Below are positions 15,534 through 38,866 of a stretch of DNA of 39,171 nucleotides, piece by piece. Below the pieces are notes generated by a model. The model was not told the DNA's origin. It was given only the letters and a program-made list of their open reading frames with translations, and searched no databases. Numbering within the stretch: position 1 is the first letter of the stretch; the number at the start of each line of letters is the position of its first letter. The translations under genes were made by a program, and so were the position numbers. Origin of the DNA: an uncultured Woeseiaceae bacterium (GTDB taxonomy: Bacteria; Pseudomonadota; Gammaproteobacteria; Steroidobacterales; Woeseiaceae); NCBI GenBank assembly GCA_905480255.1, contig CAJQPR010000160.1, positions 1-39,171 of the forward strand, in the 5' to 3' direction.

Positions 15534-15672
15534 GCCGGCATAGCTCAGCTGGGTGAGCCGGGAGAGCCGAAGCATCGCTTCGGCACGGCGAACGCCACGC
15601 CAGGACGGCGTGGCAGGTGTTTGAGAGTACGTAGATGCTAAGCCATGGATGGCAGGCACGCTTATAATATTG
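15534..15672 (+). repeat. tRNA-Thr 5' stub plus GGA-loop hairpin leader (element copy A)
   Basis: The first 19 bases copy the 5' end of the tRNA-Thr that follows 139 bp downstream, with one change (GCCGGCATAGCTCAG then C for T). After this come GGGTGAG; a hairpin CCGAAGC-ATC-GCTTCGG; the block CGAACGCCACG; a hairpin CCACGCC-AGGAC-GGCGTGG with AGGAC in the loop; GGTGTTTGAGAG; and a hairpin GCC-ATGGAT-GGC. A homologous element with the same order and nearly the same length (141 bp) precedes tRNA-Gly at 38652-38792. The leader would be transcribed with the tRNA from the promoter at 15507. GGA in hairpin loops is the recognition feature of CsrA/RsmA; whether it binds is unknown. Confidence 0.7.
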
Positions 15673-15748
15673 GCCGGCATAGCTCAGTTGGTAGAGCAAC
15701 TGATTTGTAATCAGTAGGTCCCGAGTTCGACTCTTGGTGCCGGCACCA
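15673..15748 (+). tRNA. tRNA-Thr(UGU), copy 1
   Basis: 76 nt with encoded CCA. The acceptor arms GCCGGCA and TGCCGGC pair fully, the anticodon loop is TTTGTAA (anticodon TGT), and the T loop is GTTCGACTC. It reads ACA and, with cmo5U34, other Thr codons. A TATAAT at 15663-15668 lies only four bases before the gene, too close to be its own promoter, so transcription probably comes from 15507 through the leader element. A GC-rich hairpin without a T run (15755-15773) follows. Confidence 0.97.
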
Positions 15749-15819
15749 GACTTCAGGGCCCTGCAGGGGCCCTCGCGCGGCCTGAGAAACAGAATACAGC
15801 CAGGTACCGGAATCAGACA

Positions 15820-16740
15820 GTGTCCAATGTAAACAGAAAAGTACATATCCTGAACGTACCGCTCGACCTCGGCGCCTCCAGACGAGGCACGGACGGCGGT
15901 CCCTCGGCTTTTCGCATCGCCGGCTTGAAAGATGCCGTCGAGGTGCTGGGTCACACGGTCGTCAGGGAGACGGACATCGAGGTGCCGAACATGGAATCGC
16001 GGTCCCCCGCTGATCCCTCGGCCCGCTTCAAGGAAGAGATTCTCGAGGTTTGCGAAAAGCTCGCTGAAGCGACACTGGCCGTCCTTGAAGACGGGATGAC
16101 ACCGCTTGTTATCGGTGGTGATCATTCGATCGCGATGGGGACCGTCTCGGGGGCGTCCGCGTTTTTCGCCAAGCAGGAGAAGCAGCTCGGCCTGCTGTGG
16201 TTTGACGCGCACGGCGATATGAACCTGCCCGGCACGTCGCCCAGCGGCAATATTCACGGTATGCCGCTCGCGCATTTGCTCGGCAAGGGCGATAGCGACC
16301 TGTCGAACATCCTCGGGGCGCATCCGGCCGTGGCGCCAGAGAACGTCGCATTGATCGGTATTCGGGATATCGACGACATCGAGCGAGACATGATTAATGA
16401 GGCGGGTATTTCGGCATTCACGATGCACGATATCGACAAGCTCGGCATGGGCGAGGTTGCCCGGCGTGCGCTCGAGGTCGTAAATGACGGTACCGCGGGA
16501 TTTCACATAAGTTTCGATCTCGACGGCTGCGACCCGGAGGTCATCCCCGGCTCCGGCACCCTGGTCCCCGGCGGGGTCAGCTTCAGGGAGGCGCATTTCC
16601 TGCTCGAGGAATGCGCGAACGACGGTCGCATGGAGTCGATGGAAATCGTCGAGCTGAATCCGTTTCTCGACCATGCCAATATTTCCGCGGAGCGGGCGGT
16701 CACACTGGTCCAGAGTGCGTTCGGGCGGAGTATCCTGTAG
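15820..16740 (+). CDS. rocF: Arginase
   Basis: 306 residues from a GTG at 15820; a weak CCGGAA lies upstream. The enzyme hydrolyses arginine to ornithine and urea with a dinuclear manganese centre. All metal ligands are visible: His102 in GGDHS, Asp129, His131 and Asp133 in WFDAHGD, and Asp233 and Asp235 in FDLDGCDPE. The N-terminal LDLGASRRGTDGGPSAFR segment is also typical of arginase rather than agmatinase or formiminoglutamase. The gene stands alone between two intact tRNA-Thr(UGU) copies. Together with CtlX at 8554 it would feed ornithine formation. An alternative member of the ureohydrolase family is unlikely. Confidence 0.93.
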   Translation: MSNVNRKVHILNVPLDLGASRRGTDGGPSAFRIAGLKDAVEVLGHTVVRETDIEVPNMESRSPADPSARFKEEILEVCEKLAEATLAVLEDGMTPLVIGGDHSIAMGTVSGASAFFAKQEKQLGLLWFDAHGDMNLPGTSPSGNIHGMPLAHLLGKGDSDLSNILGAHPAVAPENVALIGIRDIDDIERDMINEAGISAFTMHDIDKLGMGEVARRALEVVNDGTAGFHISFDLDGCDPEVIPGSGTLVPGGVSFREAHFLLEECANDGRMESMEIVELNPFLDHANISAERAVTLVQSAFGRSIL

Positions 16741-16852
16741 CGCCCGAATCGGTCGGAAAATCTCTCTCCGGGGCAGCGTCCGTGCCCGACAGGCCTCACG
16801 CCTTGATGCGCTGGGCTTTGAATTTGATCCACATTCCGCAAAGTGCTGTTGC

Positions 16853-16885
16853 GTGACCGGGCGAACTGACCGGTTATAATCCGCG
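16853..16885 (+). promoter_or_regulatory. Promoter of tRNA-Thr copy 2
   Basis: GTGACC (16853-16858), a 16-bp spacer and TATAAT (16875-16880), followed by a GC-rich discriminator CCGCG. The 14-bp block around the -10 is identical to the one at 15507-15520. Confidence 0.7.
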
Positions 16886-16898
16886 ACCCGACAGACAA

Positions 16899-16974
16899 GC
16901 CGGTATAGCTCAGTTGGTAGAGCAACTGATTTGTAATCAGTAGGTCCCGAGTTCGACTCTTGGTGCCGGCACCA
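16899..16974 (+). tRNA. tRNA-Thr(UGU), copy 2
   Basis: 76 nt with encoded CCA, identical to copy 1 except that base 6 is T rather than C, giving a G-U pair in the acceptor stem (GCCGGTA with TGCCGGC). The anticodon is TGT. It has its own promoter and is followed by a hairpin terminator at 16991-17025. It also forms the left border of the Fic-containing cassette. Confidence 0.97.
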
Positions 16975-38400: not shown

Positions 38401-38651
38401 GATTTTGCTACAGACGGTGGAAGGAGTTGGTTTCTTCGGACCAGCATAGCAGTCAGCCTGCAGGCAGATTTGCGTTTGGCATTGGCGGTTTGAAAACTGT
38501 GTGACGCGGTCTGGCTTGCTGGAGAGAAACTTTAAGAAAGTTTTTCTTTTGGGAAGACAAACATTAGAGAATTTGAAATTCGGACGGTTTGATTAATTTA
38601 GAACTGTCAGAATTTTTGCGCGCCTCGAGAAGGGCATCAGTGCCGAAAACG
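38401..38651. other. Spacer between tRNA-Tyr and the tRNA-Gly leader element
   Basis: 251 bp with no gene. It holds a weak AT-rich hairpin followed by T residues (AAACTTT-AAG-AAAGTTT, 38527-38543, then TTC and TTTT) that could attenuate transcription between tRNA-Tyr and tRNA-Gly. The stem is too weak to be sure. Confidence 0.5.
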
Positions 38652-38792
38652 GCGGGTGTAGTTTAGCGGGCGAGTTGCGACGGATCTGCAATAGCAGATC
38701 GCAGCGCAGCGAATGCACGGTCAGGACGACCGGGCCGGTGGTTAAAGAACGGTGAGTGCCGGGCAGGATGCCGACAAGGTCGTACAAACAAG
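38652..38792 (+). repeat. tRNA-Gly 5' stub plus GGA-loop hairpin leader (element copy B)
   Basis: The first 18 bases copy the 5' end of the tRNA-Gly that follows 141 bp later, with two changes (GCGGGTGTAGTTTAGCGG against GCGGGTGTAGTTCAACGG). After this come GGCGAG; a hairpin GATCTGC-AATA-GCAGATC; the block CGAATGCACG; a hairpin CGGTC-AGGAC-GACCG; GGTGGTTAAAGA; and a hairpin GGC-AGGAT-GCC. Order, lengths and the AGGAC loop match copy A at 15534-15672 before tRNA-Thr, although the stub sequence follows the local tRNA in each case. Confidence 0.7.
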
Positions 38793-38866
38793 GCGGGTGT
38801 AGTTCAACGGTAGAACCTCAGCCTTCCAAGCTGATGATGTGGGTTCGATTCCCATCACCCGCTCCA
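38793..38866 (+). tRNA. tRNA-Gly(UCC)
   Basis: 74 nt with encoded CCA. The acceptor GCGGGTG pairs with CACCCGC, and the anticodon loop CTTCCAA gives TCC. It reads GGA and GGG. It is preceded by leader element copy B. Confidence 0.97.

Follow-up and report, generated by a model that had tools for sequence, protein, structure and literature searches.

Why should an intact tRNA gene be preceded, about 140 bp upstream, by the beginning of its own sequence? The question arises twice in the 39,171-nt stretch analysed here (hereafter the window), a contig of the 2.8-Mb, 78% complete draft genome G000 of an uncultured Woeseiaceae bacterium. Copy B lies in the tRNA-Tyr, Gly, Thr, tuf cluster of the window, a gene order similar to that of the tufB cluster of E. 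coli. It begins with a stub, GCGGGTGTAGTTTAGCGG (38652-38669, + strand, as for all features below), that comprises 18 nt of tRNA-Gly up to the D-loop GG and matches nt 1-18 of this tRNA at 16 of 18 positions. It continues as a structured insert (38668-38792), whose first two G are shared with the stub, and ends at the intact tRNA-Gly(TCC), GCGGGTGTAGTTCAACGG (38793-38866), detected by ARAGORN and Rfam. Copy A repeats this arrangement with 19 nt of tRNA-Thr (15534-15552; 18/19 identical), an insert at 15551-15672 with its P3 and P4 loops (described below) at 15602-15606 and 15645-15650, and an intact tRNA-Thr(TGT) at 15673-15748, again found by both programs. The initial annotation had proposed two copies with the same order of parts, each stub following its own neighbour, and the window sequence agrees on both counts, the starts of stub and tRNA being 141 bp apart in copy B and 139 bp in copy A. 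A separate origin of the two leaders from unrelated sequence would have refuted it; the inserts are instead homologous and fall into one covariance-model family (92.8 bits for copy B, 99.7 bits for copy A).

We consider copy B very probably to stem from one insertion event, in which a small mobile element that is non-autonomous and has no obvious gene of its own duplicated its target. The stub would then be the upstream copy of the target-site duplication, and the first 18 nt of tRNA-Gly its downstream copy. Elsewhere in the neighbourhood, a hairpin with a T-run (GACGGTT...AACTGTC, 38583-38617), possibly a terminator or processing signal, lies between tRNA-Tyr and copy B and is conserved there across genus and family. 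At 15673-16974, two near-identical tRNA-Thr(TGT) genes surround a putative arginase/agmatinase-like frame (named from sequence), with an element at the first gene only.

The conserved fold of the element

The element folds into a helix P1 with tandem G.A, an optional P2, and two hairpins, P3 and P4, with pairing far beyond chance. In copy B this begins at 38674-38710, where P1 (38674-38678 with 38706-38710) encloses hairpin P2 (38683-38689 with 38694-38700); outside P1, the conserved blocks GGGCGA (38668-38673) and GAATG (38711-38715) stand opposed with tandem G.A. P3, CGGTC-AGGAC-GACCG (38718-38732), carries the loop AGGAC, and P4, GGC-AGGAT-GCC (38762-38772), the loop AGGAT, an A(N)GGA(N) form being present at these positions in 98/107 and 102/107 copies, respectively. 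Both loops read C-A(N)GGAN-G, closed by a C-G pair on stems of varying sequence, and their median spacing is 44 nt.

That differing stems still pair had been taken as the pattern of a conserved RNA structure, and the wider collection confirms it. Among 18 copies, 15 of the 21 pairs had changed on both sides, with a covariation of 0.447 against 0.120 in shuffled alignments. The larger set (113 copies, 107 of them distinct), in which P1 and P2 covary as well, raised the double changes to 19/21 pairs and the covariation to 0.480, against 0.107 shuffled and at most 0.050 in slid controls, with standard pairs making up 94.2% of pair cells; the copies were collected with a structure model, and the two-sided changes and slid controls guard against the bias toward the fold that remains. 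The GG(G/C)GAG and CGAAYGC blocks proved to form a single helix together, containing two tandem G.A mismatches. GGGYGA faces GARCG in the order G-C, a covarying Y-R pair (U-A in 80 copies, C-G in 20), G.A (98/107) and A.G (105/107), followed by P1, and RNAalifold recovered the G-C and Y-R pairs unprompted.

Stubs as duplicated target sites

A stub that follows its local tRNA could arise by duplication of about 18-20 bp of the target on insertion or by evolution toward the neighbouring tRNA, and the initial annotation had left the choice between them. We extended its comparison of stub and neighbour to many genomes: the full 18-19 nt match the own tRNA in 40 of 53 distinct pairs (10 isotypes, 16 anticodons), and the summed match of 819 compares with a mean of 348 and a maximum of 476 in 2000 permutations; the pattern scan for copies at tRNAs demanded a D-arm match, which favours well-preserved stubs. 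A survey blind to tRNAs detected flank duplications of at least 12 nt in 58/102 copies and in none of 510 shuffled controls. The duplication ended at element base 2 (GG) in 45 of these 58 and measured 12-92 bp, with a mode of 19, the longest values being inflated by tandem copies.

The second comparison, with element-free relatives, concerned the empty site. From a conserved anchor to the tRNA-Gly start, five congeners lacking the element measure 51, 52, 60, 62 and 81 nt, and the window has its stub start at 51 nt from the same anchor. Likewise, 18 nt separate a TATAAT from the copy A stub and a TATAAT from the element-free tRNA-Thr at 16899-16974, which serves as an empty paralogous site within the window. 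By these distances the stub stands where the tRNA begins at an empty site, be it the orthologous one of a relative or the paralogous one of the window. At the tRNA-Gly site, complete copies or remnants are also present in other genera of the family; copy B may therefore have been inserted long ago, and present activity in the window genome need not follow.

Duplications of the same type were found well beyond tRNA 5' ends. They include 79 bp at the start of an RNase E/G gene, the starts of a response-regulator gene and a GH57 gene, a hairpin resembling an intrinsic terminator (L231), 53 bp of tRNA-Gly with its anticodon arm (L116), and the 3' ends of tRNAs that carry antisense copies (L144, L146, L153), and at six tRNA loci the duplication runs upstream past the tRNA 5' end (L055, L104, L173, L174, L177, L184). 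These data support the stub as a target-site duplication, apparently the footprint of an insertion that leaves the tRNA itself intact, and the option of a duplicated target thus stands. Many protein-gene copies, above all those right after stop codons, had no detectable duplication, so duplication is perhaps optional, or its traces may have been lost through decay. The stub is eroded or missing in A, B, L059, L079, L101, L124 and L228.

The opposite option, a T-box-like or attenuator-like switch in a regulatory leader that evolves toward its tRNA, stub and tRNA 5' half being rivals for pairing, would account for stubs that track the local tRNA and for copies placed between a promoter or upstream tRNA and the tRNA. 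We regard it as very unlikely: protein-gene starts, terminators and, in antisense, tRNA 3' ends are duplicated in the same manner, many stubs decay, duplications often extend past the tRNA, and most congeners lack the element at the window's tRNA-Gly site, so that mimicry is not needed to explain the stubs. T-box-like codon reading by the GGA loop was rejected because the loop is identical before Thr, Arg, His, Val and Lys tRNAs, independent of the codon. Direct repeats of a tRNA end around an insert would also be expected of an attachment-site remnant, left by a tyrosine-integrase element with the tRNA 5' end as its integration site, yet the many different tRNA and non-tRNA targets, the variable repeat length, and inserts that never depart from about 105-135 bp, share the conserved fold and show no coding capacity make such an origin highly improbable. 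Phages and plasmids gave no blastn match, and in viral contigs a strict pattern found nothing and a loose one led to a single moderate model hit among eight contigs. Unequal recombination of tRNA arrays, leaving a pseudo-tRNA fragment with an incidental structure, would agree with the tandem units of G051, G413 and G703. It is contradicted already by the homology of the inserts, which extends over tRNA and protein sites unrelated to each other and over different families of the class, single units occur without any outer element, and we give it hardly any credence.

The initial annotation had spoken of a tRNA leader. This describes copies A and B, which do precede tRNAs, but is too narrow for the family: in four genomes, 12 of 41 loci are tRNA-adjacent and most copies lie away from tRNAs. 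The 12 loci nevertheless compare with 0.22 expected (P about 4e-18), and in these genomes all copies at tRNA genes are directed into an intact tRNA, in sense at the 5' end and in antisense at the 3' end. Selection would account for this most simply, an insertion being tolerated only if the duplication passes the nearer tRNA end; a true target preference is a conceivable alternative. Under selection, the tRNA would survive only with a duplication of about 19 nt for an insertion at the D-loop GG, or of 16 nt for an antisense insertion at the T-arm GG, and the copies seen at tRNA genes would be the survivors of insertions near either end whose duplication passed that end, which would explain the 19-nt mode.

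The copies at protein genes seem to follow a similar logic. Outside tRNA sites, about 17 of 22 copies with a GGGTGA head follow a frame that is open for at least 40 codons and ends in the element's TGA, against 3 and 5 for the other frames, in a count of our own in which tandem copies are not independent. One such frame is rpmJ, the element lying between this gene and rpsM. One and the same protein C-terminus, ...CxxCGxSKCG-stop, precedes the element in members of two different families (L100 in G477, L240 in G806); the protein is perhaps a B12-dependent ribonucleotide reductase, and this coincidence would reflect either an old shared insertion or a repeated target.

Range of the family and its relation to known repeats

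Copies A and B are thus members of a dispersed, non-coding family of about 105-135 bp. We searched with two covariance models, R1 built from six copies and R2 from eighteen, and excluded R1 matches below about 50 bits, mostly from GC-rich genomes, unless R2 or a tRNA context backed them. Strong copies occur throughout the order, and the element was present in 52 of 369 genomes sampled across Gammaproteobacteria, with up to 27 copies in one genome; eight element-rich genomes held 6 to 27 copies each (E up to 0.01). A phylum-wide sample of 398 genomes gave eight positives, all of them Gammaproteobacteria and none outside the class. A DNA pattern matched, among other named genomes, Alcanivorax, Marinobacter mangrovi, a Coxiella sp. 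MAG, Salinisphaerales and Natronospirales, and one matching MAG is labelled Acidobacteria.

Rfam 15 has no family for the element at gathering threshold: on the window it reported five tRNAs only, with no match on either element copy, and a permissive scan of L041, L042, L043 and L045 gave no credible family on their elements. The literature searched, with incomplete coverage of subscription journals, held no description of it, and an earlier description is possible. Small non-autonomous repeats are known as a kind; the class-wide family described here is apparently uncatalogued, and its duplication rule is unusual. In the broad, MITE-like sense the element is a non-autonomous mobile repeat, with dispersed non-coding copies at unrelated loci and target-site duplications. 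It falls outside the strict definition of a MITE, as the single unit has no visible terminal inverted repeat and its duplication length ranges from 12 to 92.

Among described systems, the rtT repeats of the E. coli tyrT operon (RttR) come close in form, being short tRNA-operon repeats in tandem, each unit having as its stub about 19 bp from the 3' end of the local tRNA. However, rtT is known from one operon and the element from many loci and lineages, and the best model match in the rtT region (4.5 bits) led us to reject homology by the model. ERIC, the 127-bp enterobacterial MITE, shares the size class, intergenic and gene-3'-end sites, non-coding nature and palindromic folding. Its core in one E. 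coli copy (L251:199-282) fits the scheme GTGA-P1-P2-P1'-GAGCG, in which GA faces GA just as in the element, and this fold module alone gave a weak local match (7.0 bits, E 0.023 in 486 bases). ERIC lacks P3 and P4 with their GGA loops, and BLAST of copy B against 5426 E. coli genomes, nearly all of which contain ERIC, found no match. Homology over the whole element finds no support in these matches, and a distant link is possible. REP/REPIN and the Coxiella repeats QMITE1 and QMITE2 are likewise small, non-autonomous and structured. QMITE1 measures 300-400 bp with 2-3-nt repeats and QMITE2 150-190 bp with 7-11-nt repeats and a GTAG REP, and QMITEs give rise to small RNAs (PMC5896051), whereas the element has duplications of 12-92 nt and no GTAG hairpin head.

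Several copies form part of larger arrangements. In a G476 subfamily (L142, L143, L145, L147-L149), ACAGGATTAAGCA precedes the element, and two elements in inverted orientation have spread as one unit. G461 (L119, L196, L202, L214-L224) holds at least 14 near-identical copies within a larger repeat with ends (CCCCGAGAGGCGGGAAGGCC...) that resemble inverted repeats; here the element is captured by another repeat. In G413 (L141:683-2110), seven tandem units with 5' tRNA stubs stand before tRNA-Met and at least two inverted units with 3' stubs after it, the insertion point of the later units being the anticodon-stem GGGG and not the D-loop. At L062:1501-1720 (G103), a perfect Gly stub and an element are followed by a damaged tRNA-Gly-like sequence that ARAGORN did not call.

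Mobilisation and possible function

Comparison of the copies shows a fixed 5' GG junction, a variable duplication, a conserved fold and arrays. The fixed 5' end of the element, GGGYGA, is joined to a GG in the target, in copy B the D-loop GG of tRNA-Gly. The target upstream of this GG is duplicated over a variable length, leaving one copy as the stub and the other to restore the gene past the element. A fixed 5' junction with a variable return point would suit target-primed copying or template switching better than a fixed-stagger transposase, and a putative helper may act on the folded element as RNA or single-stranded DNA. Arrays would lengthen when direct repeats exchange unequally or when further copies insert. 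Copy B would be cut from the tRNA precursor by RNase P.

RNA-mediated, SINE-like transposition, in which a nicked GG receives a DNA copy of a structured transcript, with duplications of variable length as the result, would fit the fixed junction, the variable duplication and the covarying fold. Template switching on DNA, however, predicts the same junctions, and we hold RNA-mediated transposition to be rather improbable. The RVT_1 domain was detected in G476, G703 and G461 and not in the other five of the eight element-rich genomes, and a resident reverse transcriptase would thus not be required as helper in those five. In its fullest form the idea would make the family a class-wide bacterial counterpart of SINEs, in which folded GGA-loop transcripts from tRNA or mRNA units would enter GG sites through target-primed copying or template switching and duplicate the end of the gene they enter; we consider this a long shot.

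Function is a separate matter, and one reading of it is compatible with mobility. The element contains, as in CsrB/RsmZ-type RNAs, hairpins with GGA loops of the form C-A(N)GGAN-G, and its two agree with the sequence criterion of two or more for a CsrA-binding RNA; it may be, or may have been domesticated as, a candidate CsrA/RsmA-binding RNA with two such hairpins about 44 nt apart, freed from tRNA precursors by RNase P. The constancy of the C-G-closed loops on varying stems favours this, as does csrA in all eight element-rich genomes tested and in 46 of 60 relatives, though csrA is common in the group and its presence discriminates little. The antisense copies at tRNA 3' ends argue against such a role, and searches for csrA came up empty in G000 and in two drafts with copies, G039 and G051, although drafts can miss genes. 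Unlike CsrB and RsmZ, the element has two sites only, both predicted, and is mobile and present at many loci. A binding role is, in our estimate, possible but somewhat unlikely, and the GGA loops may serve mobility instead. The three genomes without a detected csrA speak against a CsrA sponge as the sole explanation; yet the draft G000 is incomplete and its congeners have csrA.

The tRNA stubs of the window thus appear as insertion footprints of a widespread and apparently uncatalogued structured element. For a small bacterial repeat, duplications this long and variable, joined to a fixed GG, are out of the ordinary, and they hint at a novel mobilisation route. The tolerance at tRNA genes, where copies in the genomes tested always point into an intact tRNA, provides a clean comparative test. 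The family would also warn annotators of false partial tRNAs, and its near-invariant C-A(N)GGAN-G loops offer a testable connection to the CsrA network. If it were a counterpart of SINEs, it would be one that colonises tRNA genes without harm.
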